From assembly GCF_016862515.1 (NCBI RefSeq), contig NZ_BONC01000044.1, positions 1 through 64,000 of the forward strand: a stretch of DNA of 64,000 nucleotides. The letters are read 5' to 3'. Numbering within the stretch: position 1 is the stretch's first letter; each line of letters begins with the position of its first letter. The position numbers and the translations under genes were made by a program. Shown in pieces: positions 40,900-58,470 of this stretch. Below the pieces are notes generated by a model, which was not told the DNA's origin, did not search any database, and worked only from the letters and a program-made list of their open reading frames with translations. Source of the stretch: Asanoa iriomotensis. GTDB taxonomy: Bacteria; Actinomycetota; Actinomycetes; Mycobacteriales; Micromonosporaceae.

Positions 40900-40973
40900 G
40901 GGGCCGTAGCTCAGCCGGTTAGAGCAGGGGACTCATAATCCCTCGGTCGCGGGTTCGAGCCCCGCCGGCCCCA
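40900..40973 (+). tRNA. tRNA with anticodon CAT (elongator Met or Ile2)
   Basis: Acceptor GGGGCCG pairs with CGGCCCC (40966-40972), D arm GCTC/GAGC, anticodon stem GGGGA/TCCCT around CTCATAA, T arm GCGGG TTCGAGC CCCGC, discriminator A40973. CCA is not fully encoded. CAT could decode AUG (elongator Met) or, after lysidine modification, AUA (Ile2); the sequence GGGGACTCATAATCCCTCGGTCG has the look of Ile2 but I cannot decide. Its 3' half is the integration site of the conjugative element. Confidence 0.92.
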
Positions 40974-43257: not shown

Positions 43258-43967
43258 GGCCGCCGGCCGGGGTGGCCGAAGATCACTAAGGTCGTGCTGG
43301 TAGTCGGTCGCATGGCGTCGGCGTGGCTGTGGTGGTCTGGCGCGGTGCCGGAGGTGGTCGTGTAGGTGAAGGTGTCGCGGCCGTCGATGGCGGGCAGCGG
43401 CACGATGTCGTGCAGATGGTGGAGCCCGGCGGCTTGCGCGGCGGTCAACAGGAACTGTTCGTGCTCGGCGTACGGGGTGCCGGGCTGTCCAGTGGCCGCG
43501 GCGGTGACGGCGACGATGGCGCTACCGTCCGTCGCGAGGTGCTGCTGGCAGGCGCTGAGCAGGTTGTTCGCGTCCTGGCTGGGATCGGCGGCCGGCCGGG
43601 GCCAGCGCAGCACGATGAGTGTGGTGGCCTGGGGTGACTCAGGCGAAGTGGGCAGCTCAGCGAGGTCGGTGACGGCAAGGTAGCGGCGGCCGGCGGTCTC
43701 GGCGGCGTCGCGCAGGGCGTCATCGGCGTCGAGGTCGACGATGGTGCCGTGGACGTCGCTGTAGATCGCGACGAGGAGGTGCGCCAGCCGCGGCGTCAGC
43801 GGGCTGTCGCTGATGCCGCAGTCTCCTGTCGCGTCCGTGTCGTCGGAGGTGGTACGCCAGACGATGACCGGCGCCGGCTTGTGTTTGTCGTCAGGAGCGG
43901 CGACGCGCTTCGGCGCCGCGGCCGGATCGGTGGACGTGGTAGGCAGGGTGCGGTCGTGGGCAGCCAT
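43254..43967 (-). CDS. Methyltransferase-like (Rossmann) protein of the element
   Basis: A 237-residue protein. After a disordered N-terminus the region LLVAIYSDVHGTIVDLDADDALRDAAETAGRRYLAVTDL resembles motif I and the following helix of DNA methyltransferases (DPFxGSGTT..AA..GRR.IGV), but the glycine-rich loop is degenerate. LIVLRWPRPAAD could stand for the motif IV region (xPPY/DPPY) without its typical residues. I infer a SAM-methyltransferase-derived fold, perhaps inactive. It heads the minus-strand operon, and a repeat-rich control region lies upstream (44070-44246). Confidence 0.45.
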   Translation of the reverse strand: MAAHDRTLPTTSTDPAAAPKRVAAPDDKHKPAPVIVWRTTSDDTDATGDCGISDSPLTPRLAHLLVAIYSDVHGTIVDLDADDALRDAAETAGRRYLAVTDLAELPTSPESPQATTLIVLRWPRPAADPSQDANNLLSACQQHLATDGSAIVAVTAAATGQPGTPYAEHEQFLLTAAQAAGLHHLHDIVPLPAIDGRDTFTYTTTSGTAPDHHSHADAMRPTTSTTLVIFGHPGRRP

Positions 43968-44069
43968 AGGCGGGTTGCCCCCATGCCGACGAGCCGTGTT
44001 CGCACTTCACTAAGGCGTCGCGGGAGTCGTCTACGCGGCGTTGAGGCCGCCACCCGCAGTCAACAGCTA

Positions 44070-44246
44070 CCCAACAGATCAGCCTGGCGTAGTGGTTCGC
44101 CCAACAGCTGGACCGCTGTTGGGCGGGCAACCACCCAACAGCAAAATGCCGCGGCAGGCGGCAACCCAACAGACCGGTCGCGTCGGCGTCGGTCTACCCA
44201 ACAGCTCCGGGGCACCGCCCAACAGCCACCGTGTCGGTCTGTTGGG
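44070..44246. repeat. Cluster of eight CCCAACAG repeats (410-bp gene-free region)
   Basis: The gene-free stretch 43968-44377 holds CCCAACAG at 44070, 44100, 44134, 44165, 44197 and 44218 and its complement at 44116 and 44239. The direct copies are spaced 30, 34, 31, 32 and 21 nt, close to whole helical turns. The copies at 44100 and 44116 form a perfect inverted repeat with 11-nt arms (44098-44108, 44115-44125). Lies between two divergent units, so it may be an operator array or an iteron-type origin. Confidence 0.8.
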
Positions 44247-44377
44247 TAGAGGCGACACGGTGGGCTCCGACCGCGGTGGTCCGCGGGCGCCCGGGCGGCG
44301 GGATTTGTGAGAGCCCGGGCCACTGTTGGTGCGAGAGGTCGGCCCGCGTCCAACGGGAACATAACCTTGGCCGTCTG

Positions 44378-45259
44378 ATGGCCCGGGACCGTAACGTGTG
44401 GCCGGTGACTGTGACCTACCGTCCCCACCGGCGGCGCGATGAGCTGCTGATGCATCAGGTTCACGCTGCCCACCACGTTCTCGCACGTCGTGGCGGCCCG
44501 GCCTGTCCAGGAGCGTTTCCGCAGCTCAAAGCCATCACGAGGTTCATCTGCCCGTGTTGCGGCCAGGTGGTCGACGCTGACCAAGCCAGTGAGGATCACG
44601 CACCGATCCAGGCGGGCACGTTCACGATGGGCCCGGCTACGACCACGGTGTTGACCTGCGCGCCGTGCAATAACCTGCCTGGCCGTAGCTATGAGGCCGC
44701 GGCCGGCCACAACGACAAGGCTCCGGAACTCGACCTCGACCTGCCCGGAATGAACAGCGCGGTGTATGGCCGGCGCCGGGTCCAGACGCACCGCACGCTG
44801 CGACTTTTCCTCGTACGCGAAGAGACGCCGTTCGTGCGTACCGATTTCAAAGCCGGGTTCCTGCTGGCCTTCGCGGCGCTCGGCTACGAGTGGGCGTTGT
44901 CGCCTGGCGCCCGCCTGATCGCGCCCTCGCTGCATCCGGACGCGCCAGAGCCGGCACCAGCGCACGCGTATCTGATGCGCAGCACGATCGATTCGCCGCT
45001 ACAAGGTGAGAATGTGGTGATGGAGGTGGCCGACCCGCAGGCCTGCGTCATTGTGCGGGCCGCGACCGGCCTGTCCGTCGTCCTGCCCGCCGCCGGGCGA
45101 ACCAGCGTGCCCACTGTGCAGGGGGATCTCCGCGCGAGGTTCTACCCCTGGCCGTCGACCGGCTCGCCGGGCAGTACCGGCGGCCACGTCGACCGCGAGC
45201 ATCGCGCCGGGCACCTGTTCCACTTGGATTTCTGCGACGCGCCCGATCACGTTGGTTGA
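44378..45259 (+). CDS. HNH-like endonuclease-fold protein of the element
   Basis: A 293-residue protein. CPCCG (C58, C61), EDH (H74) and CAPCNN (C94, C97, N98) have the spacing of a zinc-bearing HNH nuclease core. The C-terminal 190 residues are unrecognised, with hydrophobic strands (FLLAFAALGYEWALSPGARL; ENVVMEVADPQACVIVRAAT). ATG 44378 begins MARDRNVWPVTVTYRP; a downstream GTG 44396 is possible. It stands between two repeat clusters. A nicking or cleavage role in transfer or replication is plausible, not shown. Confidence 0.6.
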   Translation: MARDRNVWPVTVTYRPHRRRDELLMHQVHAAHHVLARRGGPACPGAFPQLKAITRFICPCCGQVVDADQASEDHAPIQAGTFTMGPATTTVLTCAPCNNLPGRSYEAAAGHNDKAPELDLDLPGMNSAVYGRRRVQTHRTLRLFLVREETPFVRTDFKAGFLLAFAALGYEWALSPGARLIAPSLHPDAPEPAPAHAYLMRSTIDSPLQGENVVMEVADPQACVIVRAATGLSVVLPAAGRTSVPTVQGDLRARFYPWPSTGSPGSTGGHVDREHRAGHLFHLDFCDAPDHVG

Positions 45260-45319
45260 GCGGACGCCGCACACTCGCAGGTCACGAGCCTGGGCGGACG
45301 ACGAGGCACCCGGGCCGCC

Positions 45320-45670
45320 TCACTGCGAACCGTTGCGGCGGCGGTTCGCCATCCGCGCATAGAGCTCGCCGATAACCTCTGCTCCGGCGGCGTCTAGTTG
45401 AGCCCGGCGCCGCCGATACACGAGCCAGCCGACCAGCGCGACGCCGAGCGTCAGCAGCGCAAGGACAGCGATGGCACCGACTGCGTACCAGGTCAACCCG
45501 ATCAGCCAGCCGGGACCGTCGTCGGCCTGGATGTTCAGGAAGGCGAGCACTCCCGCCGCACAGAACGCGACGAACAGGCCAACCGCGCCGTGAATGGCCA
45601 GCTGAGCCAGCCGGTGCCGAATGTGGGCGGTGTGGTCGTGTCGATACACCCGGGCGGACATGCCGTTCAT
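45320..45670 (-). CDS. Two-helix membrane protein of the element
   Basis: A 116-residue protein with two membrane helices, AVGLFVAFCAAGVLAFL and YAVGAIAVLALLTLGVALVGWLVY, and a basic, coiled C-terminal tail (RRRRAQLDAAGAEVIGELYARMANRRR). ATG 45670 or ATG 45661 (MSARVYRH) may start it. Converges on the HNH-like gene (60 nt apart). Function unknown; could be an entry-exclusion or mating-channel accessory protein. Confidence 0.6.
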   Translation of the reverse strand: MNGMSARVYRHDHTAHIRHRLAQLAIHGAVGLFVAFCAAGVLAFLNIQADDGPGWLIGLTWYAVGAIAVLALLTLGVALVGWLVYRRRRAQLDAAGAEVIGELYARMANRRRNGSQ

Positions 45671-45786
45671 TGTGCAGTGACTCAGTCCGGGCTGTCAGCC
45701 TTCCTGTTCGCGTCGCCCGGTCGCCGTGCACGGATCGACCGGCGACGGGCTGCCCCGCACCTCCCTGCGTCGGCCGCGGCTCGTCG

Positions 45787-45978
45787 TGTTGGGTACGGCC
45801 GCCTGCGCCTGGCCCGGCGCTACCCAACAGCGGCTCCGCTGTTGGGTAGCTAACACAACACGGCGATGGGCTACCGACCGTAGTCCACCCAACAACCCAA
45901 AGCTGTTGGGTGCGCTCACCCAACACCAACAGCATCGAGTGCTGGCCCTCGTCCAACGCCGGGGTCTCCGCCCAACAG
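45787..45978. repeat. Second octamer cluster, with a 32-nt perfect palindrome
   Basis: Gene-free region 45671-46410 (740 bp). CCCAACAG at 45823 and 45971, complement at 45839 and 45903, variants CCCAACAA at 45888 and CCCAACAC at 45919, and TGTTGGG at 45787. The copies at 45823 and 45839 sit in a perfect palindrome, arms GCTACCCAACAGCGG and complement (45819-45833, 45836-45850) with a 2-nt centre. A further copy is at 46201, with imperfect ones to 46330. No coding sequence is supported in this region. Confidence 0.8.
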
Positions 45979-46410
45979 TCACAGACGCACGCTCCGGGAT
46001 GTTGCCACACGCCGCGCATCGCCGGTCGCCGCCGGCTTCCACGCATACGCCCCCAGGGCCGTCCTAGCTCGTCAAGATCCGTCGTGGTCGAGTTCTATCC
46101 GTATGCCCGCATCCCGAACGGATCACCGAGCCGAGCGTCCGCATCGCCGCTGCGGGTCGCCGGATCCACGGGCATTCCGTGAGGTCATCGGCCAACACGG
46201 CCCAACAGCATGCTGACCTCGGCTGTTGGACGGCAGTTGCCGGCGGCACCTCGCGCGGCCGGTCATGCCGTGCTGGCGTTGGGTGGCCGTGACCACGGCC
46301 AACACCACCGCGGCGGGGTCGACGTATCCGGCCAGTGTTGGGCTGACCTGCCTGAATAGCGGTCCGCGCGCCGAATTCCGTCGGCGCACCGCCCACTCGG
46401 GAGCTCCGCA

Positions 46411-47223
46411 GTGACTACCTCTTCCTGGCCATCGACACCGCTGGACGCGGCGGAGAAGGCATTCACCATGCTGTCCGAGGCGCCGACCCACGTGCCGTTC
46501 GACGCACGCGGCTTCGAGGGACTGCCCGACCGCATCATTCCCCTCGACGAGCTGCGCACAGCGCTGCTCGTGGCCGGCACCGGCCATCAGGTGCGCGATG
46601 CGGTCTGGCGGGAACTCGTCGTCCGCGCCCGCCGCGACGGCCCGGCCTGGCGCGTCGCCGCGGTCGGGATGGCCATGCCGGGGCTGCGCCGGCAAGCCGG
46701 ACTGCTGGCCGCGGGCTGGCACGGCGACACACACGACCTCGACGCCGAACTGCTGGTCGGGTTCATGGAGCGCTTGGCGACCGTCGACCTCGGCGAGCCG
46801 CGGGTCTGCGGCCGGCTCATCGATGCCGGCGTCCGCGCCGCCCGGAAAATCCGCGACGCCGAGTCCGACACCATGCTGATCCGCAGCGGCGAGCCCGGCT
46901 CGGTACTTCCGATCCGGCCGTGGGATCACCCCGATCTCGTGTTGGCCCGAGCCGTGGCAACCGCGGTCATCGACCGCGAAGAGGCCCGGCTCATCGCCGC
47001 TACCCGGCTGGACGACTACACCCTCGTCCGAGTCGCTGCCGAGCTCGGCATCTCACCGCAGACCGCATCGGATTGGCGGGCTCGGGCAGAAAAGCGTCTG
47101 CAGCGTGCGATTGGCGACGGCGAACTGTCTTTCGTGCCGCTGCGCCCGCGGCGTCAGCGACCCAACAGCAGCCTTCACTCTTCCCGTGTTGGGTCGCTGT
47201 TGGCTACGCGAACCGCGGCGTAG
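46411..47223 (+). CDS. Sigma-70-like/HTH regulatory protein of the element
   Basis: A 270-residue protein. The C-terminal part, LVLARAVATAVIDREEARLIAATRLDDYTLVRVAAELGISPQTASDWRARAEKRLQRAI, reads as a region-4-like helix-turn-helix (AAELGISPQTASDWRARAEKRL). The N-terminal 180 residues are helical and unrecognised. Starts at GTG 46411 after GGGAG. The last 22 codons contain copies of the element's octamer repeat in an inverted pair (47156-47198), so the C-terminus is partly shaped by that DNA signal. A regulator of the transfer genes that follow is likely. Confidence 0.6.
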   Translation: MTTSSWPSTPLDAAEKAFTMLSEAPTHVPFDARGFEGLPDRIIPLDELRTALLVAGTGHQVRDAVWRELVVRARRDGPAWRVAAVGMAMPGLRRQAGLLAAGWHGDTHDLDAELLVGFMERLATVDLGEPRVCGRLIDAGVRAARKIRDAESDTMLIRSGEPGSVLPIRPWDHPDLVLARAVATAVIDREEARLIAATRLDDYTLVRVAAELGISPQTASDWRARAEKRLQRAIGDGELSFVPLRPRRQRPNSSLHSSRVGSLLATRTAA

Positions 47224-47244
47224 GCCGCGTTGGCCACCCAACAA
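47156..47244. repeat. Third octamer cluster at the transfer-operon boundary
   Basis: AGCGACCCAACA (47156-47167) and its perfect complement TGTTGGGTCGCT (47187-47198) form 12-bp arms with a 19-nt loop; another CCCAACAA lies at 47237. It spans the end of the sigma-like gene and the 225-bp leader before the VirB2-like gene. The leader also has a CCCC-GAGAA-GGGG hairpin right before the ribosome site at 47430. Confidence 0.7.
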
Positions 47245-47448
47245 AAGGCCTTGGTGGGCAAGACATCGAACCGCAGGGCGGTCGGTGTCCGCGCCCCGGG
47301 GATCGTCGCGGCGCCGGCCTGACCGGGCCGTGTTCGCACCCGATCCCGTAACGGCCGGAAGGAGCCAAGCTCCCACGGCCCCGCCCGATCCCCGGTGGCG
47401 CACCTCAATCCCAGCGATCGCCCCGAGAAGGGGCGGGAGGTGCCCACC

Positions 47449-47787
47449 ATGTTGCGACGCAACATTTCCCGTCTGCTCGTCATCACCACGGCCACCGCCT
47501 CGGCGGTGGCCGTGGCTGTTCCGGCCTACGCGGCCGAGCCGCAGATCCTGGCGGCCAACGACCTGCCCACGATCATCACCAACATCACCACCTGGATCGT
47601 CGGCCTGCTCATCGGTGTCGCGACCCTGTTCCTCACCATCGGCGGTCTGCGCTACCTCGCGGCGGGCGGGGACCCGACCGAGGTAGAGAAGGCCAAGTCC
47701 GCGTTCAAGTCGGCCCTGATCGGCTACGCCCTCGCAGTCCTCGCGCCCGTCCTGCTCGCCATCGTGAAGGGCTGGATCGGGGGCTAA
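47449..47787 (+). CDS. VirB2/TrbC-like pilin subunit
   Basis: A 112-residue protein with a signal peptide (RRNISRLLVITTATASAVAVAVPAYAA) and two membrane helices, TWIVGLLIGVATLFLTIGGLRYLAAG and SALIGYALAVLAPVLLAIVKGWIGG. The GGLRYLAAGGDPTEVEKAK turn is the family hallmark of gram-positive pilin-like T4SS proteins. ATG 47449 is preceded by GGGAGGTG. First gene of the transfer operon, 2 nt ahead of the VirB6-like gene. Confidence 0.83.
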   Translation: MLRRNISRLLVITTATASAVAVAVPAYAAEPQILAANDLPTIITNITTWIVGLLIGVATLFLTIGGLRYLAAGGDPTEVEKAKSAFKSALIGYALAVLAPVLLAIVKGWIGG

Positions 47788-47789
47788 CC

Positions 47790-49052
47790 ATGGGGTGGGT
47801 CACCGGCGAGCTGATCGAAACCATCGTCAAGTGGTGCGCCGAGATGATCGTCGGCGGCCTCAACATCCTCTGGAACCTGCTGGCAGCAACGGTGTTCGTC
47901 TCCCCGGACGTGACCGTTCTGCCACAGGTCCAGGCCGTTTCCAACACATCACTGGCCATCGTCAACACCGTCTACGTCCTGGCGATCCTGTGGATGGCCA
48001 TCCTCGTTATGGGCCGCGACACCATCCAAAGCCGCTACGGCCCGGGCGAGCTGATCCCGCGGCTGGTCATCGGTCTAATCGGCGCCAACCTTGCCATGCC
48101 GCTGTGCGCTCAACTCATCGGTCTGGCCAACGCTCTGACCAGCGCATTGACCTCCCAGGACATCACCTCGCCCAACTCGATGCAGCAGATGCGCACCGTC
48201 GTCACCGGTTCACTGGCCAACCAGACCGGCAGCGACCCGGGCGGTTTCCTACTGGTCCTGCTCGGCCTGGTCATCGCCATCTTGGTCGGCATGCTCGTCG
48301 TGCAGTGGATCATCCGATTGGGACTGCTCATCGTGGCCGTCGGTGTCGCGCCGATCGCGCTGGCGCTGCACGGAACCCCGCAGACCGAGCCCGCCGCGAA
48401 GCTGTGGTGGCGCACGATACTCGGCACGCTGGGCACCGTCGTCATCCAGGCGGTCGCCCTGCACACCACCCTGACCGTGTTCCTCAGCCCACAAGCCAAT
48501 CTGCCCGCGCTGGGCATGCCCGGCGACCCCGGCGTGGTCATGAATCTGTTGATCGTGCTGTGCCTGCTGTGGGCCATCCTCCGAGTGCCGAGCATGATGC
48601 GCCGCTACGTCACCAAGTCCTCGCCCAGCCAGGCCGGAACGATCCTGCGCGTCGTACTCATCCAGCAGTTGACCCGCGGACTGAGCCGCGTCGCCAGCGG
48701 CGGTCGTGCGGCTGCCGGCGCCGGTGCGGCCCGCCGCGGCTCCGGCGGGTCGGGCGGCGTACGCGGCGGCGGTGACCCGCCGTGGCCGACAACCACACCC
48801 CGCGGCGGCGGTTCCCGCCCGATTTCCCGCTCCATGTCGGCCACGCCCGCGAGCAAGTCGACGCCCACGCCACCCCGGGTGCCGTCGCGTCCACCGACCG
48901 GCGCCGGCCCCGGCGTGGTCGGCACCGCCTACCCGACCGGCCGGCCGGTCAAGCCCTACACCGCCGACGAACTCGCCGAAGGCGTCGACGTCTATACCCG
49001 CCGACTCAAGAGCCGCGGCGCAACCCCAGCAACCGGAAGGAACCGTCCATGA
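47790..49052 (+). CDS. VirB6/TrbL-like channel protein
   Basis: A 420-residue polytopic protein with about seven helices (e.g. LAIVNTVYVLAILWMAILVMG, FLLVLLGLVIAILVGMLVVQW, VVMNLLIVLCLLWAILRVPSMM), matching the VirB6/TrbL inner-membrane component of type IV secretion. The C-terminal 120 residues are cytosolic, Gly/Ser/Pro-rich and end with AYPTGRPVKPYTADELAEGV and VYTRRLKSRG, a motif repeated in the next small gene. The stop overlaps that gene by 4 nt. Confidence 0.83.
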   Translation: MGWVTGELIETIVKWCAEMIVGGLNILWNLLAATVFVSPDVTVLPQVQAVSNTSLAIVNTVYVLAILWMAILVMGRDTIQSRYGPGELIPRLVIGLIGANLAMPLCAQLIGLANALTSALTSQDITSPNSMQQMRTVVTGSLANQTGSDPGGFLLVLLGLVIAILVGMLVVQWIIRLGLLIVAVGVAPIALALHGTPQTEPAAKLWWRTILGTLGTVVIQAVALHTTLTVFLSPQANLPALGMPGDPGVVMNLLIVLCLLWAILRVPSMMRRYVTKSSPSQAGTILRVVLIQQLTRGLSRVASGGRAAAGAGAARRGSGGSGGVRGGGDPPWPTTTPRGGGSRPISRSMSATPASKSTPTPPRVPSRPPTGAGPGVVGTAYPTGRPVKPYTADELAEGVDVYTRRLKSRGATPATGRNRP

Positions 49053-49261
49053 ACCGCGACATCGTTGCACCCGCACCCGCACCCGCACCCGCACCCGCGG
49101 ACACCGACATCGATCCCGACCGCGCGATCGTCGCGGTCGCCTGGCCCACCGGCCGCCCGATCTACGCCTACACCGCCGAGGAGATCGCCGACGGCGTCGA
49201 CGTCTACACCCGCCGGCTGAAGGCCGCCGCCGCCGAGGCGGGTGCGGCAGATGCGCGCTGA
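49049..49261 (+). CDS. Small element protein sharing a motif with the VirB6-like tail
   Basis: A 70-residue protein from ATG 49049, overlapping the upstream stop (ATGA), with GGAAGGA before it. It begins with PA repeats from five tandem GCACCC hexamers (49067-49096), then VAVAWPTGRPIYAYTAEEIA, DGVDVYTRRLKAAA. The second half is nearly identical to the VirB6-like C-terminus, so it looks like a tail module duplicated as a separate protein. Role unknown. Confidence 0.7.
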   Translation: MNRDIVAPAPAPAPAPADTDIDPDRAIVAVAWPTGRPIYAYTAEEIADGVDVYTRRLKAAAAEAGAADAR

Positions 49262-50162
49262 CACCGAAGCCGCACCGCGCGCCCGAATTCCCGCCGACGT
49301 CGACCAACCCGACAAGATCATCTATGGGTTGACCGCCCGCCAGCTGGCGATCGTGGCGGTCGCCGTAGCGATCGCCTACGGCCTGTTCAAGATTCTGGGC
49401 CCGCTGCTGCCACAGCCGATCCTGATCGCCATCATGGTGCCGCTGGGCGGCGCGGCGATCGTGCTCGCGCTGGGTCGCCGCGACGGGCTGGCCCTGGACC
49501 TCTGGCTGCTCTCGGCAATCCGCCAGTCACGTGCACCCAAGCATCATGCCGCCGCTGCCGCCGAGCCGGTGCCGGCGTGGGCACCGGGACCGGGCATGGC
49601 GGTGCCCCAGCTACGGCTACCCGCCCGGGCCGTCTCCGAAGCCGGCGTCATCGACACCGGCGAGCAGGCCGTGGCTCTCGTGGCAGCCAGCACCGTCAAC
49701 CTGGCCCTGCGCTCCGGCGATGAGCAGATGGCGCTGATCGGCGCCTACGGGCGGTGGCTCAACGGGCTCTCCGGCCCGGTGCAATTGGTCATCTCCGCGC
49801 AACGGGTGGACCTATCCAGCCACGCGCAGCGGGTCGCCGACCTAGCCGCGACCATCGGCAACGCGGCGCTGGCCGACGCCGCGTACGACTACGCCGAGTT
49901 CCTCGACCAGCTGGCCGAACATCGCGACCCGCTGTGGCGCACCGTCACGATCGCGGTCACGGCCAAGGCCGACAAGGGCCGCGACACCGAAGTCCTGCGC
50001 CGGGCCGATCACGCCGCCACCGCACTGGCCGCTTTGGGCGCGCAGACCGCCGTGCTGGACGGGCCCACTGCCACCGCAGTGCTCACCTGCGCCACCGATC
50101 CGTACGCCCCGGTCGACGTCACCTGGCCCCGGTCGCGCCCAGGCGCGCCGGTGACCGGATAA
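49251..50162 (+). CDS. PrgI-like T4SS inner-membrane protein with cytosolic domain
   Basis: A 303-residue protein. The start RIPADVDQPDKIIYGLTARQL followed by helices AIVAVAVAIAYGLFKI and ILIAIMVPLGGAAIVLALG is the PrgI family (VirB3-equivalent). It then carries about 190 cytosolic residues (GWALVAASTVNLALRSGDEQ-like region; LIGAYGRWLNGLSGPVQLVISAQRVDL) that resemble the N-terminal part of VirB4-type proteins. ATG 49251 overlaps the previous gene by 11 nt. The next gene is the VirB4-like ATPase. Confidence 0.75.
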   Translation: MRADTEAAPRARIPADVDQPDKIIYGLTARQLAIVAVAVAIAYGLFKILGPLLPQPILIAIMVPLGGAAIVLALGRRDGLALDLWLLSAIRQSRAPKHHAAAAAEPVPAWAPGPGMAVPQLRLPARAVSEAGVIDTGEQAVALVAASTVNLALRSGDEQMALIGAYGRWLNGLSGPVQLVISAQRVDLSSHAQRVADLAATIGNAALADAAYDYAEFLDQLAEHRDPLWRTVTIAVTAKADKGRDTEVLRRADHAATALAALGAQTAVLDGPTATAVLTCATDPYAPVDVTWPRSRPGAPVTG

Positions 50163-50173
50163 GGAGAGCTGAC

Positions 50174-51964
50174 GTGAACCTGTTGTCCCGAAAACGAAAA
50201 ATCAAGATCGAGAACACTGAGAGCCCGGCCGAACAGGCCGGGCTCTCGTCCGTTCTGGGCCCGGCCGGCGTGCTGAACATGCCGCGCTACCTACAGGTCG
50301 GCGACGGCTACGCCGCCGTGTTGATCGTGACCGGCTACCCCGCCGAAGTCGGGGCGGCCTGGCTCGACCCGCTGCTGGGCTGGCCCGGCCGCCTCGACGT
50401 CGTGGTCTATGTCGACCCGCTCACCCCGCAGGTGGCCGCAGCCCGGCTGCGCAAGCAGCGCGCCCGGCTGGAGTCCAACCGGCGCAGCGACACCGAGAAA
50501 GGGCGGCTGCTCGATCCCGCGGCCGAAGCCGCCGCCGATGACGCCGCCGAACTGGCCGACCGGATCGCCCGCGGGCACTCCAAGCTGTTCCGCTGCGGGC
50601 TCTACCTGTGCGTGCACGCCACGACGGTCGAGGAGCTGCAGGAGTCCATCGCCCACGTGCGGGCCGTTGCCGCCTCGGTGCTCCTGGACACCCAACCGGC
50701 AACCTGGCGGCAGCTGCAGGGATGGATCTCCACTCTCCCGCTGGCCACCGACAACCTCGGCATGCGGCGGGTCATGGACACCGAAGCCATCGCCACCATG
50801 TTCCCGCTCGCGTCGCCTGACCTGCCCGCCCCGCTGCCCGGCGAGCCGGCCCCGGCCGGCGGCATGCTCTACGGCCTCAACCCCGATTCGGCCGGAATCG
50901 TTTGGTGGGACCGGTGGAACCAGCACAACGCCAACAGCATCGTGCTGGCCCGCAGCGGGGCCGGCAAGTCGTACTTCGTCAAACTGGAGGTGCTCAGGTC
51001 GCTGGCTGACGGCGTGCACGTCTCGGTCATCGACCCGGACAACGAGTACCACCGGCTGGCCGGTGCCGTCGGCGGCACGACAATCCACCTCGGCGCCGGC
51101 GGCGTCCGCCTCAACCCGCTCGACATCCCGCCCGGCGACCGCCGCGACGACGCGCTGACCCGCCGGGCGCTTTTCCTGCACACCCTCATCGCCGTGCTCC
51201 TGGGCGAGCAACCCCCACCGGCCGAACGCGCCGCGCTCGACAAGGCGATCATCGCCGCGTACGCCACCGCCGGGATCTCCAACGATCCCGACACCTGGCA
51301 ACGGCAGGCACCGCTGCTGCGCGACGTATCAACGGCGCTCGCGGCCGACGGCAGCGACGCCGCCCTCAACCTCGCCGCCCGGCTGACGCCCTGGGTCTCG
51401 GGCAGCTTCAAGGAGCTCTTCGACGGTCCAACCACGACCGTCCCCCACGGGCAGCTCGTCGTGTGGTCGACCCGGCAGCTCGCTGACGAGCTGCGGGCAC
51501 CCGGGATGCTACTGGCTCTCGACGCGATCTGGCGCGTGGTCGACGTGCCGCTGGCCACCACCGGGCAACCGCCCCGCCGACTGGTCATCGTCGACGAGGC
51601 ATGGGTGCTGCTCAAAGACGGCGAGGGCGCCAAGTTCCTCTACCGACTGAGCAAGAGCGCCCGCAAACGCCGGGCCGGCGTCGCCGTCATCACCCAGGAC
51701 GTCGGCGACCTGCTCGGCTCTGACCTCGGGCAGGCGGTCATCGCCAACGCCGCCACCCAGATCCTGCTGCGCCAGGCGGCCCAGTCGGTCGACGCCGTCG
51801 CCGACAGCTTCGGCCTGACCGCCGGCGAGGCCCGGCTGCTGCTGGCAGCCCGACGCGGCGAAGGCCTGCTGATCTCAGGCACCCACCGGGTCAGCTTCCA
51901 AGCGGTCGCCTCCAAGAAAGAACACAGGCTGTGCATCGGAGACCTCGAAGTCGACGACGAGTAG
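50174..51964 (+). CDS. VirB4-like conjugation ATPase
   Basis: A 596-residue ATPase driving T4SS assembly. Walker A LARSGAGKSYFVKLEVLRSL (about 259), Walker B RRLVIVDEAWVLLKDG (about 472), then SARKRRAGVAVITQDVGDLL and ATQILLRQAAQSVDAV typical of VirB4/TraC. GTG 50174 has AAGGAGAG upstream. Within the first 25 codons lies a strong 12-bp hairpin (50219-50247). A terminator follows the stop. Confidence 0.9.
   Translation: MNLLSRKRKIKIENTESPAEQAGLSSVLGPAGVLNMPRYLQVGDGYAAVLIVTGYPAEVGAAWLDPLLGWPGRLDVVVYVDPLTPQVAAARLRKQRARLESNRRSDTEKGRLLDPAAEAAADDAAELADRIARGHSKLFRCGLYLCVHATTVEELQESIAHVRAVAASVLLDTQPATWRQLQGWISTLPLATDNLGMRRVMDTEAIATMFPLASPDLPAPLPGEPAPAGGMLYGLNPDSAGIVWWDRWNQHNANSIVLARSGAGKSYFVKLEVLRSLADGVHVSVIDPDNEYHRLAGAVGGTTIHLGAGGVRLNPLDIPPGDRRDDALTRRALFLHTLIAVLLGEQPPPAERAALDKAIIAAYATAGISNDPDTWQRQAPLLRDVSTALAADGSDAALNLAARLTPWVSGSFKELFDGPTTTVPHGQLVVWSTRQLADELRAPGMLLALDAIWRVVDVPLATTGQPPRRLVIVDEAWVLLKDGEGAKFLYRLSKSARKRRAGVAVITQDVGDLLGSDLGQAVIANAATQILLRQAAQSVDAVADSFGLTAGEARLLLAARRGEGLLISGTHRVSFQAVASKKEHRLCIGDLEVDDE
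50219..50247 (+). promoter_or_regulatory. Strong hairpin inside the 5' end of the VirB4-like gene
   Basis: GAGAGCCCGGCC (50219-50230), loop GAACA, and a perfect complement (50236-50247): a 12-bp GC-rich stem 45 nt after the start codon. There is no T-tract. It could slow ribosomes or polymerase early in the gene. Confidence 0.5.
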
Positions 51965-51991
51965 AGCCACCCACCTGATCTCACCACCCCA

Positions 51992-52039
51992 GGGCTGGTC
52001 CCGGCACCTCCACGCGAGGTGCCCGGGGCCAGCCCTTTT
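51992..52039 (+). terminator. Terminator between the VirB4-like and coupling-protein genes
   Basis: GGGCTGG (51992-51998) pairs with CCAGCCC (52029-52035), with an inner stem GGCACCTC/GAGGTGCC, followed by TTTT. It lies 28 nt after the VirB4-like stop and 27 nt before the next start, so it may act as an attenuator for the coupling-protein gene. Confidence 0.75.
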
Positions 52040-52065
52040 CGCGTTTCCGAGAAGGTGCCCACCCC

Positions 52066-54621
52066 ATGACCTGGCCTGCTGCACTCCTCGTCCCGTCACC
52101 ATCCACACCCGCCACCCCCGACCCGGCGCCGACACCGGAATTCGCGACGCCCGGCCCATCGCGATGGATCATGCACACCGCGACGAGCGTCGTCGACTGG
52201 TGCACCGACCGGCCCTGGCTGCTCGCCGTCGTCGCGTTGCTGCTCGCGACCGGGTACGCCGCCCGGCTGTTCCTCATCGCCCGACAGCAGAACCGCATGC
52301 GCCAGCACGCGCGGCTAGTCCTGATCAGCCCACCGCCGGAGGTCGAACCCTCCGGCACTGCCGTTCTGTGGGCCACGCTCGCAGAGATTCTGCGGCCCAG
52401 CTGGCGGCGCCGGCTGCGCGACGGCCGCCCGCATGTGGCCGTGGAATACCGGTGGTCGGGGCGGCAGCTGCAGATCGGCGTCTGGCTGCCCGGCACCGTC
52501 GCCTACGGACCGATCCTCGCGGCAATTCGCGGTGCCTGGCCCGGCGTCGCGGTCGAGATCACCGAACCCACCGCCCCGCTGCCGAGCGACGCGATCAGCG
52601 TCGGCGGCGCCCTGGCCCCCGTCCTGCCGGCGTGGTTCCCGCTGGAAACCGACCACGACGCCGACCCGTTGCGCACGCTAATCCAGGCCGCCGCCGGACT
52701 GAGCAACCACGAGACCGCCTGCGTACAAGTCCTGGCCCGGCCCGCCACCAACCGCCAGATCGGCCGGCTTCGCCGCGGCGTGCAGGCGCTGCGCACCGGC
52801 AAACCGCCCCGCACCCTGCTCGACCCGGCCGCCTGGGTCAGCGGCGTGCTCGATCTCGTACTGGAACTGCTCGGGCCGGCCCGCCACCCCTCCCGCACCA
52901 CCACGAACCGCTACCAGGCGAACCTGCCCGGCGCCGACCCCCAACGTGAACGCGATGCCCGCGCGGCCGTCGACAAACTCGCCGGAGCACCACTGTGGGA
53001 AATCGCCGTGCGCTATGCCGTCGCACACACCGGCCGTGGCGGCACCCCGCAAACCCTCGCGCCGCGCCTGTCCAGCCTCGCGCACGGCCTCGCCTCGGCA
53101 TACGGCGTCTACGCCGGCCGTAACCGGCTGCGCCGCCTGCGGCTCAAACACCCCAACCCGGTGCTGGCGTCACGGGTCCTGCGCCGCGGATTCCTGCTCA
53201 ACAGCAGCGAACTGTCCTGCCTCGCCGCCCTGCCCACCGATGTCGCCGTCCCCGGCCTGGATCGCGCAAGGGCCAAGCCCATGCCAGCACCCATCACCGT
53301 GGCCACCGGCGGACGCGCCACCAAGGTCCTCGGCGTCTCCCAAGTCGGCGGCCACAAGGTCGCTCTCAAGGCCGCCGACGCCCGTCAGCACGTCCACGTG
53401 CTCGGATCCACCGGCTCCGGCAAGTCCACCCTCCTCCTCAACATGATCTTGGAGGATGTGCACGCCCGACGCGGGGTCATCGTCATCGACCCCAAAGGCG
53501 ACCTCGTCACCGATGTGCTGGATCGGCTCCCGGCGAAGCTCGCCGACAAGCGGCTGTTCCTCCTCGATCCGGACCAGCCGGCCGGCGCGACGCTCAACCC
53601 CCTCGCCGGCACCGACCACGACCTCGTCGTCGACCACATTGTGTCGATTTTCGGGAAGATCTTCGCGAAGCACTGGGGACCGCGTATCGACGACACGCTG
53701 CGCATGGCGTGCCTGACCCTGCTGCGTAAGGCCAACGCCACGCTCACGCTGGTTCCGTCTCTGTTGCAGGACAAGCAGTTCCGCGCGGCGTTCACCGCCG
53801 ACCTGGACGACCCCGAAGGCCTGCTCGGGTTCTGGCAGTGGTTCGAGAGCACCCCACCGCCGGTGCGTTCACAGGTCATCGGCCCGGTCCTGGCCAGGCT
53901 GCGCAGCTTCCTCACTCGTCCGTTCGTGGGACAGACCATCGGCGCCCCCCGTTCCACCGTCGACATGCGCCGCGTGCTCGACGGCGGCATCCTGCTGGCC
54001 CGGCTGCCCAAGGGGCAGATCGGCGAAGAGACCTCCCGGCTGATGGGGTCGTTCATCCTGGCCTCGGCATGGCAGGCGGCCACCGCTCGTACCCGCATCG
54101 CCGAGCAGGACCGCCGCGACGCGGTGGCCTACATCGACGAGTCGCACAACTTCCTGAACCTGCCCGGCAGCGTCGGCGACATGCTCGCCGAAGCCCGCGG
54201 CTACCGCTTCGGGCTCGTCCTGGCGCACCAGAACCTCACCCAGATGCCGCGGGACACGCAGCTCGCCCTGAGCGCCAACGCCCGCAACAAGGTCTATTTC
54301 AGCTGCGCACCGGAGGACGCGCACCAGCTCGCCCGGCACACCATGCCCGAGCTGTCCGAGCACGACCTCAGCCATCTGGACGCGTTCCAGGCCGCCTGCC
54401 GGCTCGTCGTCGACGGCCGCGAGACACCCGCGTTCACCCTGCTGACCCAGCCGGCCAAGCCCCTCGTCGACGAGACGACTGCGGTCCGGCAGGCCGCCCT
54501 GGCCAACGTCGCCGACCCGGCCAACGGTCCCGCCGCAATCGCCCGCCTCGCCGGTGTCAAGACACCGGACGACACCGCCACCCAACCGGACCCAACACCA
54601 GCAGACGACAGCGCCGCGTAA
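52066..54621 (+). CDS. Type IV coupling protein (VirD4/TraD-like DUF87 ATPase)
   Basis: An 851-residue ATPase that links the DNA substrate to the channel. An N-terminal hydrophobic helix (PWLLAVVALLLATGYAARLFLIAR) anchors it; about 380 residues of linker follow. Walker A is LGSTGSGKSTLLLNMILED (about 447), then GVIVIDPKGDLVTDVLDRL, Walker B DAVAYIDESHNFLNLPG (about 688), and the RYRFGLVLAHQNLTQM-type motif III. The C-terminus is acidic/Pro-rich. Starts at ATG 52066 after GAAGGTG. Its stop sits inside a hairpin terminator. Confidence 0.9.
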   Translation: MTWPAALLVPSPSTPATPDPAPTPEFATPGPSRWIMHTATSVVDWCTDRPWLLAVVALLLATGYAARLFLIARQQNRMRQHARLVLISPPPEVEPSGTAVLWATLAEILRPSWRRRLRDGRPHVAVEYRWSGRQLQIGVWLPGTVAYGPILAAIRGAWPGVAVEITEPTAPLPSDAISVGGALAPVLPAWFPLETDHDADPLRTLIQAAAGLSNHETACVQVLARPATNRQIGRLRRGVQALRTGKPPRTLLDPAAWVSGVLDLVLELLGPARHPSRTTTNRYQANLPGADPQRERDARAAVDKLAGAPLWEIAVRYAVAHTGRGGTPQTLAPRLSSLAHGLASAYGVYAGRNRLRRLRLKHPNPVLASRVLRRGFLLNSSELSCLAALPTDVAVPGLDRARAKPMPAPITVATGGRATKVLGVSQVGGHKVALKAADARQHVHVLGSTGSGKSTLLLNMILEDVHARRGVIVIDPKGDLVTDVLDRLPAKLADKRLFLLDPDQPAGATLNPLAGTDHDLVVDHIVSIFGKIFAKHWGPRIDDTLRMACLTLLRKANATLTLVPSLLQDKQFRAAFTADLDDPEGLLGFWQWFESTPPPVRSQVIGPVLARLRSFLTRPFVGQTIGAPRSTVDMRRVLDGGILLARLPKGQIGEETSRLMGSFILASAWQAATARTRIAEQDRRDAVAYIDESHNFLNLPGSVGDMLAEARGYRFGLVLAHQNLTQMPRDTQLALSANARNKVYFSCAPEDAHQLARHTMPELSEHDLSHLDAFQAACRLVVDGRETPAFTLLTQPAKPLVDETTAVRQAALANVADPANGPAAIARLAGVKTPDDTATQPDPTPADDSAA

Positions 54622-54644
54622 CCCAACAGCCACGCGGCGCTGTC
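54607..54644 (+). terminator. Hairpin with the octamer in its loop
   Basis: Perfect 13-bp arms GACAGCGCCGCGT (54607-54619) and complement (54632-54644); the 12-nt loop is AACCCAACAGCC and contains a CCCAACAG copy. It overlaps the coupling-protein stop codon and is likely its terminator. Confidence 0.7.
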
Positions 54645-54675
54645 CCGTGCTGCCCAACACCCTACGGAGAACTCT

Positions 54676-55152
54676 GTGACCACACCCAACACCACCGATC
54701 AACCCGACCCGCAGCACCGCCGGCGACTCGCCGACCAGATCGCCAACCAGCTCTACACCGCGAGGCTGCTCGGCGGAGCGGTCCGCATCGTCCAACGCCA
54801 TCCCGCCTACCTCAACCTGCGTCCACAGCTGCACGACATCCTCACCGCCGCACCGCAGATCGCCGCCGGCGGCGATCCCGAGCTCGTGCGGGTCGCCCGG
54901 ACCCCCAGCGGCGCCCTCGCGGTCATCCGACTGCATGGGCCGGCGTGGAGCCTGATCCTGTCGTCCGGCCATCCGATGCCCAACTGGCTGCTGGCCGTCC
55001 ACGACGCGTACCCGCTGCACCTGCTACCACCGCGACGAGCCCGGCCAGGCCATCTGCAGGCCCTCGACCTTCGCGCCGACGTCTTCGCCGAGGCCGAGCT
55101 GACCCGCATGTGCCAGCGCATCCACGCCGCTCTGCCGCCCGGCCCGGGCTGA
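54676..55152 (+). CDS. Hypothetical element protein
   Basis: A 158-residue soluble protein from GTG 54676. Helical N-terminus (RRRLADQIANQLYTARLLGGAVR), then mixed alpha/beta sequence (RVARTPSGALAVIRLHGPAWSLILSSG). No recognised family, no membrane segment, no Cys cluster. It sits between the coupling protein and a gp88-like gene, the usual place for small element-specific proteins. Confidence 0.55.
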   Translation: MTTPNTTDQPDPQHRRRLADQIANQLYTARLLGGAVRIVQRHPAYLNLRPQLHDILTAAPQIAAGGDPELVRVARTPSGALAVIRLHGPAWSLILSSGHPMPNWLLAVHDAYPLHLLPPRRARPGHLQALDLRADVFAEAELTRMCQRIHAALPPGPG

Positions 55153-55233
55153 CACCGCCCGGCGCGGCAGCGCCGCTCGAACTGATGCTCCGACCGCGTC
55201 GCCTCCTTGCCCCTTCTCACCCAGGGGACACCC

Positions 55234-56025
55234 ATGCCTGCAACCGTTGACACCCAACCCTTCTCGCGGCCGAAACGGCTGCTCACCCAGAACCGCGAAC
55301 TCAAAGCCATCGGGGTGTGGAACTGGACGTTGCCCGCCTGGGCCGGCCGGTTGCCCGACGGCCGCACCTACAACACCTGCCCCGCCGCCGGGATCTGCCG
55401 GCAGGTCTGCTACGCGCGCAACGGCACCTACCTGTGGCCCGCCGTGCGCCGTCGACACCACGCCAACCTCGCCTTCGTGCTCGACGACCTGGCCGGCTGG
55501 GAGGTCGCCATGACCGCCGAGCTCGGCGCCCGCCGCCACCGCGGCGCGTGGATCCGCATCCACGACTCCGGGGACTTCTTCAGCGACGACTACCTGCTGG
55601 CGTGGCTGCGCATCTGCCGCACCCGGCCCGGCCAGACCTTCTACGCCTACACCAAGGAAGTCTCGCGCTTCCGGCGGCTGGTCGAACCCGAGCCGCCGGC
55701 CAACTTCCTCTGGGTCTACTCCTACGGCGGCACCGAGGACCGCCTACTCGACCCCGCGGTCGACCGGGTGGCCGACGTGTTCCCCACCGAGGAGGCGATC
55801 ACCGCGGCCGGCTTCTCCTCCCAGGATGCCTCCGACCTTCTGGCGGTGATCGGCCCGCGGCTGGTCGGCATACCCGCCAACCGCATCCCACGATTCGTCC
55901 GCATCCTCAACGGGCGCCGCTTCAGCCAATGGCAGGCCGACGAGGACGTCGTCCGGCGACGGCGGGCCGCAGGCACAGCAAGGCGCTCTCGAATCGCCAC
56001 GGGGGAAGCGGTTCGAGAGCGCTGA
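55234..56025 (+). CDS. Phage gp88-like domain protein
   Basis: A 263-residue protein. The region YNTCPAAGICRQVCYARNGTY with cysteines in CxxxxxCxxxCYA arrangement, then WIRIHDSGDFFSDDYLLAWL and FYAYTKEVSRFRRL, matches the actinophage gene-product-88 family (radical-SAM-like Cys pattern). Start ATG 55234 (MPATVDTQPFSRPKRLL) has AGGGGA upstream. An 11-bp inverted repeat near the stop (55983-55993 with 56012-56022) could end transcription. Biochemical role unknown. Confidence 0.7.
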   Translation: MPATVDTQPFSRPKRLLTQNRELKAIGVWNWTLPAWAGRLPDGRTYNTCPAAGICRQVCYARNGTYLWPAVRRRHHANLAFVLDDLAGWEVAMTAELGARRHRGAWIRIHDSGDFFSDDYLLAWLRICRTRPGQTFYAYTKEVSRFRRLVEPEPPANFLWVYSYGGTEDRLLDPAVDRVADVFPTEEAITAAGFSSQDASDLLAVIGPRLVGIPANRIPRFVRILNGRRFSQWQADEDVVRRRRAAGTARRSRIATGEAVRER

Positions 56026-56194
56026 ACCTCAACGTACGCCGACACGCTGCCCGGCTCAAGGCCGGGCCGATCGATCTTGTCCTGCCCGGCCCGGACCCGG
56101 TCACCGGGTCGGCCCACGACCCGGCCGGGACCCCACGTCATCAGGCCGACCCCAGGTCGACCCACGCCACCCAACACCGCAGCTAGGAGCCCAC

Positions 56195-57169
56195 ATGCCC
56201 GGCACCGGACCAACCCGACACTTCCCTACAGGGGAAGTCTCCCGACCGGGGACGCAGCCCTTCCTGCTGCTACCCACCTCCGACTCCGTCACCACCTCAC
56301 CCGTCTCCACGCTCATCGACATCTCCCACCGCCTTCGCCCCCGCGACTACACCATCGCCTCCCTTCTCCATGAACACACCATGCTCACCACCGACCAACT
56401 CGCCATCATCCTGTTCACCAACTCCATCACCTGCCGACACCGCCTCGGTGTTCTTCGCTCGATCGGCTACCTCGACCGGTTCATCCGCCGCAACCAGCCC
56501 GGCACACCCAACGTCGTCTGCTGGATTCCCGGTCCCCTCTCGGCGCGCCTGACCGCCCTGTCGACCGGGGACACACCACCTACCCCGAAAGCACTCCGCG
56601 AACGGCAAGACCGCATCTACGCCAACCCCGCCCTCGACCACCTCATCGACACCAACTGGTTCGGCACCCGCCTGTTGGCCCACAGCCGCGCCGACACCAA
56701 CACCGCACTGCTGCGCTGGTGGTCCGAACGCACCACCGCCAACATGTTCGGCCAGCGCATCCACCCCGACGGGCACGGCGTCTGGACCGACGGCACCCGC
56801 CAGGTGGGCTACTTCCTCGAACTAGATCGGGGCACCGAACCCATCGGCAAACTCGCCGATAAGCTCAACTCCCACCGGCGGCTGCGCGCCGAAGGCGGCC
56901 CGAGCTACCCGATCCTGTTCGCCCTGCCCAACCGCACCCGCGAGCAGAACCTGCACCGGCGGCTGGCCGAGCGCCCCGAACCGAGCCTCGTCGTCGCCAC
57001 CACCTCACCCGAGTCCGGCACCGACCCTGCCGACGCGGTCTGGCGACTGGTCGGCAACGGGCGGCACCGCCTTGCCCTGGCCGACCTGCCGGCCAGCCAC
57101 GGCCAGCCCGGCCCTCTCAACCCCGGACCGCCGGCAGCCGATCAGCATCCCCTGCACCACATGCACTGA
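56195..57169 (+). CDS. Replication-relaxation family protein
   Basis: A 324-residue protein of the replication-relaxation type common on actinobacterial plasmids and conjugative elements. A winged-helix region lies at HTMLTTDQLAIILFTNSITCRHRLGVLRSIGYLDRF; downstream GTRQVGYFLELDRGTEPIGKLADKLNSHRRL is the conserved nuclease-like core with Glu/Asp and Lys. Family members are linked to plasmid replication or relaxase function. An ATG 56195 start adds some 40 leader residues before the conserved part (HRLRPRDYTIASLL). The octamer-rich region 57266-57651 follows it. Confidence 0.75.
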   Translation: MPGTGPTRHFPTGEVSRPGTQPFLLLPTSDSVTTSPVSTLIDISHRLRPRDYTIASLLHEHTMLTTDQLAIILFTNSITCRHRLGVLRSIGYLDRFIRRNQPGTPNVVCWIPGPLSARLTALSTGDTPPTPKALRERQDRIYANPALDHLIDTNWFGTRLLAHSRADTNTALLRWWSERTTANMFGQRIHPDGHGVWTDGTRQVGYFLELDRGTEPIGKLADKLNSHRRLRAEGGPSYPILFALPNRTREQNLHRRLAERPEPSLVVATTSPESGTDPADAVWRLVGNGRHRLALADLPASHGQPGPLNPGPPAADQHPLHHMH

Positions 57170-57265
57170 GCCCGCCCCGCCTCCGACGGGACCGGTCACC
57201 CGGTCCCGTCGGCGTCTCACGCCGCAGCCTCGACCGCCATGCGGTCACCCGGCGCCTGCCACGGG

Positions 57266-57651
57266 CACCCAACACGGCCCCGCTCGACCCAACACGGTTC
57301 GCCAGTCATCGAGCGGTCAGCCCAACAGTGCAGCTCAACCCCCTTCCGGCCGTGATCATCGGCTGGACCGGCTGTTGGGTGCAGCCGGTACGGTGAAGTC
57401 TTCTCATAGAGAACCCCCACCAAGCACCACCCCTCGGGCCCGGCGCCCACGACCGCGGTAGCAACCGCCCACCCGCCTTCCGGCCGGTCGGCCTGCACCG
57501 CCCGTGACCCGCCAAACCCCACCGCACCGCGCACCACCACGCACCACCTCCGCGCCCTCATGGCGCACCTACGCCCGGCGCCTCTCGCGCTCCGGCGTTC
57601 CTGCACCGCCATTCATCGCGGCTGTGCTTCCTCCGCGCGCCTCACCCAACA
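57266..57651. repeat. Fourth octamer cluster (548-bp gene-free region)
   Basis: Between the replication-relaxation gene and the cargo operon (57170-57717) lie CCCAACAC at 57268, 57288 and 57646, CCCAACAG at 57321 and its complement at 57372. No supported gene in the region. The spacing between copies is irregular (20, 33, 51 nt then a gap), looser than in the 44-kb cluster. Confidence 0.7.
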
Positions 57652-57717
57652 CCGGCTTCCGCAGCCGGCGATGCCGCGCATCCACACCCGTTCTCTATCC
57701 ACAATGGAGGCTTTACC

Positions 57718-58380
57718 GTGCCCGACTTCACGGTCATGACCGTCTGCCTGCCCAAGGCAACGCCCAGCGACCAGATCGCCACCGCAGCCTCGGCGCTGCT
57801 CGCCGCTCATGACATCACCGACGCCGGCCCCGCCGGCCACTTCCTCACCGCAACCCGACTGCGTACCGCCCAGCTTCTGCAGCCCTGGAAAGGCACCGCC
57901 GCCGGCGGCCCGATCCGACTGCTGAACCTCGCGCGGATGCGCAACGACCTGTCCCAGTCGTACGGGCGCCGCTGGCAGCTGTGGCACCAGATCGTCGCCG
58001 GATCTCCGGTCGCTCGCCCCTGGTGGCACTTCTACGACCGTCACACGGCCGACCCCAAGGCCTACACCTGGAACCACGCCAGGCACGGCTTCGCCAGCCA
58101 GCCCCGAATCGCACGGATGCTCACCTACAACAGCCACCCTGGTCGGGTCACCGACCTTCCCCTGGAACACCTCGACGCCTTCGAAGCCGGCCCACAGGCC
58201 TACGCCACCTACGGCTGGCTCCAGGCCGTCCCGTGCCACAGCATGCTGACCCTCGACGGGCAGCTCCTGCGTCCCACCAGCGCTCGCTACAGCGACCAGC
58301 TGGACTACCTGCGCCAGGCCAACGAGCACATCGCCCGCCTCGCCACCACAGACCTGCTGGCCGCCATCGCCACCAAGTAA
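57718..58380 (+). CDS. Hypothetical cargo protein
   Basis: A 220-residue protein from GTG 57718 (TATGGAGG-like AATGGAGG upstream). It is aromatic-rich (RRWQLWHQIVAG, ARPWWHFYDRHTA, PKAYTWNHARHGF) with a TYNSHPGRVTDLPLEHLDAF segment. No membrane helix and no family I recognise. First gene of the cargo operon. A terminator-like hairpin follows. Confidence 0.55.
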   Translation: MPDFTVMTVCLPKATPSDQIATAASALLAAHDITDAGPAGHFLTATRLRTAQLLQPWKGTAAGGPIRLLNLARMRNDLSQSYGRRWQLWHQIVAGSPVARPWWHFYDRHTADPKAYTWNHARHGFASQPRIARMLTYNSHPGRVTDLPLEHLDAFEAGPQAYATYGWLQAVPCHSMLTLDGQLLRPTSARYSDQLDYLRQANEHIARLATTDLLAAIATK

Positions 58381-58399: not shown

Positions 58400-58426
58400 A
58401 GCCGGTCATCCCACGGATGACCGGCT
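58400..58426 (+). terminator. Intercistronic hairpin before the GGDEF gene
   Basis: Perfect 12-bp stem AGCCGGTCATCC / GGATGACCGGCT with a 3-nt loop, 20 nt after a stop codon and about 45 nt before the next start. No T-tract. Confidence 0.55.
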
Positions 58427-58470
58427 ATCGGTCGTGCCCTGCATACCACTCCCACGAAAGGGGAACCGCC

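Follow-up and report, generated by a model that had tools for sequence, protein, structure and literature searches.

KorB, a relative of ParB encoded by the IncP plasmid RK2, recognizes a palindromic operator whose copies are spread over the whole of RK2. Region 4 of extracytoplasmic function (ECF) sigma factors reads a -35 word in which AAC is typical. In Streptomyces plasmids the TraB recognition repeats (TRS) are clustered copies of an element-specific 8-bp word serving DNA translocation at clt, and pSAM2-type elements move DNA with an FtsK-like TraB. According to two published accounts, KorB and KorA exert global repression of RK2, KorB acting as a CTPase DNA-sliding clamp (PMC11790492), and the pSAM2-type integrative conjugative elements (ICEs) of actinomycetes are chromosomal, reside in tRNA genes and encode their own regulators, KorSA and Pra (PMC3218068). 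The DNA analysed here, a stretch of 64,000 nucleotides from Asanoa iriomotensis termed the window, carries a type IV secretion ICE adjoining a tRNA-Met gene, in which the octamer CCCAACA(G/C) recurs in the gaps between transcription units. These octamers are probably operators of a single DNA-binding protein encoded by the element itself, most probably the sigma-like protein encoded at 46411-47223, and phased operator arrays of a sigma-derived global autoregulator are the best reading of their arrangement.

The locus resembles the KorB/KorA system in that an element-encoded regulator would have operators at the promoters of a conjugative replicon, including its own, but differs from KorB in its sigma-like protein, its short asymmetric octamer and its phased arrays; no ParB was found among the scanned proteins, and the asymmetric word does not have the form of a parS-like operator. 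As in pSAM2-type ICEs, a chromosomal conjugative element of an actinomycete lies at a tRNA gene with a regulator of its own. However, those elements have an FtsK-type TraB in place of a type IV secretion system (T4SS), whereas pilin, TrbL, PrgI, VirB4-like and coupling proteins are present here, and the scans linked the sigma-like protein to neither the GntR nor the XRE family. The octamer shares with TRS the clustering of an element-specific 8-bp word and differs in that its copies mark four gaps at transcription-unit edges. By prediction the putative reader would share with ECF sigma factors the fold, the domain order and a region-4-type helix-turn-helix, and its word contains AAC; unlike them, it falls below the sigma cut-offs of Pfam and NCBIfam, its sites have no shared -10 and its arrays run in both orientations. 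No description of the word, the protein family or the arrangement was found in the literature, judging by titles and abstract starts, and a search with the octamer strings gave no conjugative-element paper by title among the matches listed.

The octamer (CCCAACAS) occurs 28 times on the two strands of the window, against a mean of 3.3 and a maximum of 9 in 100 dinucleotide shuffles, and every copy lies within 44070-57652, where a preliminary description had reported more than 20 (44.07-57.65 kb). Both strands are free of it in the left 44 kb, in keeping with the earlier remark that no clusters had been noticed in the left 40 kb, as well as to the right of 57652; the locus from 60000 to the contig end at 66322 also contains none. 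The host genome (8.57 Mb) holds 374 copies, corresponding to an expectation of 0.59 for 13.6 kb, and this comparison, set beforehand as a check, places the genome-wide density about 50 times below that of 44070-57652. Although the non-coding share of 43968-57717 is 17%, 24 of the 28 octamers lie outside called genes (binomial 4.5e-15) and the remaining four are found at gene ends (47161, 47186, 54591 and 54685), which bears out the placement in mostly gene-free DNA at the edges of transcription units (Table 1). CCCAACA is the commonest of its 35 anagrams in the core, with 30 copies, and occurs once in the left 40.9 kb. The word had also been described as richer in AT than its surroundings; it is slightly so, but the excess is mild (3/8 against about 30%).

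Table 1 Features of the octamer-bearing element, in window coordinates.
Feature	Position	Strand	Remarks
Octamer array 1, 8 copies	44070-44246		in the gap 5' of the divergent gene 43254-43967, which is on the minus strand
Octamer array 2, 6 copies	45786-45978		inverted pairs 45823/45839 and 45903/45919
Octamers 46201(+) and 46335(-)	46201-46342		directly upstream of the sigma-like gene
Octamers 47161(+) and 47186(-)	47161-47193		overprint the 3' end of the sigma-like gene
Inverted pair GTTGGCCACCCAACA, then conserved block GTGGGCAAGACATCGAACCG	47229-47273	+	candidate regulated promoter ahead of the pilin/T4SS operon
Octamer array 3, 4 direct copies	54591-54692	+	spacing 31-32 bp; spans the coupling-protein gene end and the start of 54676-55152
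Single octamer	56170-56177	+	25 nt before the relaxase ATG; conserved CAGCTAGGAG then follows
Octamer array 4 (57268+, 57288+, 57321+, 57372-)	57268-57379		after the relaxase gene
Last octamer	57645-57652	+	upstream of 57718-58380
Sigma-like two-domain protein, 270 aa	46411-47223	+	probable octamer reader
tRNA-Met gene	40900-40975		to the left of the divergent gene
Serine recombinase/integrase gene, with the tRNA-Met gene	40900-42588	-	stop codon inside the tRNA-Met gene
Divergent gene	43254-43967	-	left of octamer array 1
Type IV secretion operon	47395-54621	+	pilin, TrbL-like, PrgI, VirB4/TraG-like ATPase, coupling protein
GP88 protein	55207-56025		right of the T4SS operon
Replic_Relax (PF13814) relaxase/replication protein	56195-57169	+
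GGDEF (diguanylate cyclase) protein	58417-59409

Conservation was followed in 26 collected elements, window included, from which 12 close relatives (window included; G080, whose contig is without the left part, was omitted) were selected for gap counts and 13 for spacing. Gap a extends from the divergent gene to the sigma-like gene, gap b from the sigma-like gene to the pilin gene, gap c from the coupling protein to the relaxase, and gap d follows the relaxase; gaps c and d contain some genes. All 12 close relatives have copies in gap a (59 octamers, 5.5 per kb, orientation 39/20), gap c (23 octamers, 1.7 per kb, 22 of them on the coding strand) and gap d (32 octamers, 2.2 per kb, orientation 20/12), and 10 of the 12 have them in gap b (39 octamers, 8.8 per kb, orientation 23/16). 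The T4SS operon between the gaps contains 9 octamers in 105 kb (0.09 per kb) in the same relatives. One word thus stands at several promoter regions and keeps its position in related elements, the second check set beforehand. In an unbiased count of 7-mers, CCCAACA was among the best seven in 11 of the 26 elements and the top word in 6. The top 7-mers of one element, G217, were adapter-like remnants adjoining N runs and not element words; CTGTCTCTTATACACATCT, found beside N runs in its contig C13 (L079, L080), resembles a sequencing adapter, and these remnants are probably an assembly artefact.

Conservation extends to individual sites. A block near GTGGGCAAGACATCGGACCG in gap b is kept in 12/12 close relatives, and directly before it the place of the word is occupied by CCCAAC in 10/12 and by the full CCCAACA in 7/12, usually preceded by an inverted half. 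Similarly, of the 22 elements printed, 11 have the full octamer at a constant short distance ahead of the relaxase ATG and six (G003, G046, G120b, G193, G204 and G221) have a one-base variant there; the printed stretches of the other five did not show it. Relatives of the sigma-like gene occur in Paractinoplanes, Jidongwangia, Micromonospora, Amycolatopsis and other actinomycetes. In the nearest, Paractinoplanes rishiriensis, five of the six window octamers in alignable DNA are kept, that at 44070 differing by one base, and the octamers 46201(+) and 46335(-) are identical. Another conserved word, GTGTTCGCA, most often embedded in GCCGTGTTCGCA, stands on either side of the sigma-like gene, at window positions 43996-44004 and 47330-47338. 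All 12 close relatives have the exact word at the first, the second or both of these places, and it might mark a region of transcription start or a second regulator's site. In some relatives (L002, L003 and L157) the sigma-like reading frame continues through the octamer array, which leads to repeated ATQQ-type peptides.

Alignment of the flanks of 189 CCCAACA sites from 13 elements defines the site core as (A/G)CCCAACA(G/C)C. No shared -10 emerged at these sites: outside the core, every flank column between -60 and +69 has 0.14 bits or less. Octamers on the same strand are spaced preferentially at 10-11, 20-22, 30-33, 41-44, 51-54 and 62-66 bp, with a period of 10.5 bp (Rayleigh z 61 for 110 pairs in 13 elements, the pairs not being independent). 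The phasing persists when the DNA upstream of the sigma-like gene is taken alone (z 24.7, 94 CCAACA pairs, 26 loci) and recurs in two classes of elements with other words (TGAACA, z 81; CTCACA, z 109). Spacing by helical turns suggests that a protein occupies a single face of the double helix.

More distant elements use another word at the corresponding gaps, each clade displaying its own version of protein and word. CTGACAG, TTGAACA or CTCACAG is found in some or most of the four gaps of these elements. The Asanoa genome itself holds two elements with different words: a second related T4SS element (contig C16; L015, L016, L017) has CTGACAG in gaps a, b and d, with 12 CTGACAG and 2 CCCAACA copies, against 30 CCCAACA and 1 CTGACAG in the window element. 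The G002 genome, which has a sigma-like gene, T4SS genes and CTGACAG copies, displays the same recognition-helix core as the C16 element, with 9 CTGACAG copies over the 21 kb that were examined, most of them surrounding the sigma-like gene. In G004 the word is TTGAACA; of its 16 copies, 14 fall in the 0.7 kb upstream of the sigma-like gene, and another precedes the relaxase. A survey of 210 loci, reduced to 187 distinct proteins by dropping 23 identical ones, assigned as the best of four words CCAACA to 26, CTGACA to 35, TGAACA to 32 and CTCACA to 20, leaving 74 with none; some of these 74 loci show other words, such as CTACTAG. All four words share the ending ACA.

The same replacement is seen far from the sigma-like gene. 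In relaxase-side stretches about 7-20 kb from it, 20 from CTGACA- and TGAACA-class elements and 12 of the window's class, the counts of CCAACA/CTGACA/TGAACA are 60/3/2 in the window's class, 5/53/8 in the CTGACA class and 6/3/15 in the TGAACA class. The own word accordingly makes up 60/65, 53/66 and 15/24 of the copies beside the relaxases (chi-square p 6e-31, the sites not being independent), and TGAACA is absent from 3 of the 10 TGAACA-class stretches.

The AlphaFold model of the sigma-like protein (pLDDT 82) predicts two helical domains, residues ~59-153 and 174-235, joined by a loose linker. Its middle part appears to resemble sigma region 2 and its C-terminal helix-turn-helix sigma region 4. 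In a fold search of the PDB the best 50 of 462 matches (E up to 10) were all sigma factors or sigma-bearing transcription complexes. The protein barely passes the HTH_23 threshold (24.8 of 24.6 bits) and lies under the cut-offs of Sigma70_r4 (15.6 of 24.1 bits), Sigma70_r4_2 (16.0 of 25.7) and NCBIfam TIGR02937 (20.9 of 42.9), and it is absent from the 100 Sigma70_r2 matches in its host genome; Sigma70_r4 matches 4 of 28 family members, with a best E of 5.7e-6. Curated sigma domain models do not identify the window protein as an ECF sigma factor, nor is the word followed by a -10 at fixed spacing at the 189 sites, where one gap b site has a fixed downstream block. The protein is thus sigma-like and probably sigma-derived, and not a proven sigma factor. 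Homologues are present in 160, 160 and 164 of 300 sampled genomes of the host's family, and plasmids encode two distant homologues (31-32% identical).

Four candidate readers were compared over the 26 elements in a table of hidden Markov model matches. The sigma-like protein is present in 24/26 elements, and the other two stretches stop short of its place: G080 is truncated by the end of its contig, and the G022 homologue, obtained separately as L211, is located further to the left. It is the sole candidate never missing where its place was covered, and homologues of the relaxase and of the proteins encoded at 57718-58380 and 43254-43967 are each missing from some word-bearing elements. No Replic_Relax homologue was matched in the G002 genome, where 8 of 27 candidates were scored. 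The stretches of G002, G004, G171, G185 and G080 yielded no 57718 homologue, and those of G136, G055, G171, G185, G217 and G204 yielded no 43254 homologue, nor did those of G080 and G022, which are without the left part. The word class goes with the clade of the sigma-like protein. Among the 113 of 187 proteins assigned to a word, one recognition-helix decamer, DALRMRLGRI, is common to two classes (CTCACA 9, CTGACA 2), and several decamers recur among the 74 wordless proteins. The case for the sigma-like protein as reader rests on its predicted DNA-binding fold and its place, which make it the probable one; this protein, to which the preliminary description had also pointed, fits best.

Several observations count against this assignment. 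The coupling protein is present in 26/26 elements, so constancy alone points to no reader. The word class follows whole clades, and many protein columns correlate with the word: the recognition-helix columns 217, 220 and 221 rank 9th, 16th and 17th of 240 by per-column mutual information, failing to stand out because word class and protein clade go together. CCAACA makes up 6/87 of CCAACN copies in six proteins and 190/301 in the LAS/TAS proteins; residues 220-221 were considered as a specificity code for the last base of the word and rejected, the case being a single clade and hence one event. None of the four words was found for 74 of the 187 proteins, some with helices seen in word-bearing classes. 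The C16 element is without CTGACAG before its relaxase, the G002 protein is 82% identical overall to the C16 protein and provides no independent test, and the CTGACA class shows no clear phasing (z 4.8). The kinship with sigma factors is also distant. The best Foldseek match, sigma-E 1or7, has an E of 2.9e-3 and a TM score below 0.45, none being under E 0.001, and sequence profiles found no significant match in the PDB (terpene synthase, E 0.019; a sigma-4-like UPF0122 protein, 0.028; RpoE, 0.15). With hhalign the probability is 45% (E 2.3e-4) against 14 presumed host sigma sequences, both domains aligning in order; the reference was taken from host sigma-factor loci, and one of its sequences, L322, resembles a wrong frame.

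The sigma-like protein could also be a working alternative sigma factor, with the octamers as -35 elements and the arrays as overlapping starts or decoys. The predicted two-domain fold, the common ACA ending of the four words, the AAC within CCAACA and TGAACA, and the position of the intact word's place in gap b, 17-18 bp before a conserved GACATC-like sequence, are all consistent with such a role. It is nevertheless unlikely: the 189 sites lack a shared -10, three of the four gaps contain octamers of both orientations, the copy in the relaxase leader stands too close to the ATG for a -35, and the protein falls outside the Sigma70_r2 matches of its host. A reader other than the sigma-like protein, which would then merely co-travel with the word, is quite unlikely. 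The fixed position of the octamer in the relaxase leader would suit Replic_Relax, and the 43254 homologue lies left of the arrays in most elements, with a weak match in CTGACAG and TTGAACA elements too; yet the relaxase and the 57718 protein have the gaps in distribution noted above, G055 and G204 have CCAACA-type words with no 43254 homologue found in their stretches, and neither the 43254 nor the 57718 protein has a Pfam match up to E 1.

Phased direct repeats resemble iteron arrays, and with spacings of 10-11, 21 and 31 bp, next to a relaxase family named for replication and relaxation, the octamers might form the origin or the partition centromere of the excised element. That either function explains them is improbable. 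The copies are distributed among four gaps along 13.6 kb, at the edges of transcription units, and no ParA, ParB or iteron-Rep domain was found in the scanned proteins, a subset of the element's open reading frames. A partition site is less likely because of both this spread and the absence of ParA/ParB domains from the scanned proteins, while a replication-initiator site, conceivable for a single gap, is opposed by the spread and by the result in word-bearing G002 described above. The preliminary description had left the choice between a regulator, a partition protein and a replication initiator; the regulator is best supported, by the four gaps, the phasing and the word replacement, and the other two are less likely. 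A role of the octamer as RNA, in leaders or hairpins, would accommodate the coding-strand bias in the gap before the relaxase and the inverted pairs, which could fold into hairpins, but is hardly to be expected, since gaps a, b and d have both orientations, helical-turn phasing is a property of duplex DNA, and no Rfam family except tRNA scored above its gathering score in 40500-64000.

That the octamers are operators is well supported by the sequence comparisons, and the sigma-like protein is their probable reader. It would bind the octamer through its region-4-like helix and assemble on the phased arrays, which would lie over the control DNA of the sigma-like gene itself, of the divergent gene and the T4SS operon, and of the relaxase and the operon that comes next. 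Binding would be cooperative, with repression rather than activation as the main effect, such that the whole transfer programme may be held or released as a unit and the protein may gauge its own level. In 3/12 elements (G120a, G120b and G111) a conserved sequence close to the presumed start of the divergent gene is directly preceded by an octamer half, an arrangement that would suit RNA polymerase occlusion; the window's closest copy stands at a greater distance. Clade-specific versions of protein and word would wire co-resident elements apart. A WhiG-RsiG-c-di-GMP structure is among the fold matches of the sigma-like protein, and one may speculate that the GGDEF protein of the element, together with the control of WhiG by cyclic di-GMP (c-di-GMP), hints at the input signal.

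Elsewhere in the element, a GGDEF match is present in 20/26 compared stretches, and the right part also encodes a resolvase-like protein. Up to the contig end at 66322, no further exact match to the tRNA 3' end was found with lengths of 16 to 30 bases. A direct repeat of 118 nt, 75% identical, at 48904-49021 and 49116-49233, straddles the 3' end of the TrbL-like gene.

A wider proposal, put forward tentatively, is that this sigma-derived family acts as an immunity-type master switch of actinomycete T4SS elements. Its members would have abandoned promoter recognition, would bind phased arrays of a private word and would silence the transfer programme cooperatively, a change of word allowing related elements to share a cell without cross-control. 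The octamers would provide a readable control code for a large and little-studied group of conjugative elements, in which the word would predict the elements that could cross-regulate. The protein-word pairs may constitute a natural series for the way in which a helix of the sigma region-4 type changes its DNA word, and orthogonal pairs within one cell may be useful for synthetic biology in actinomycetes.

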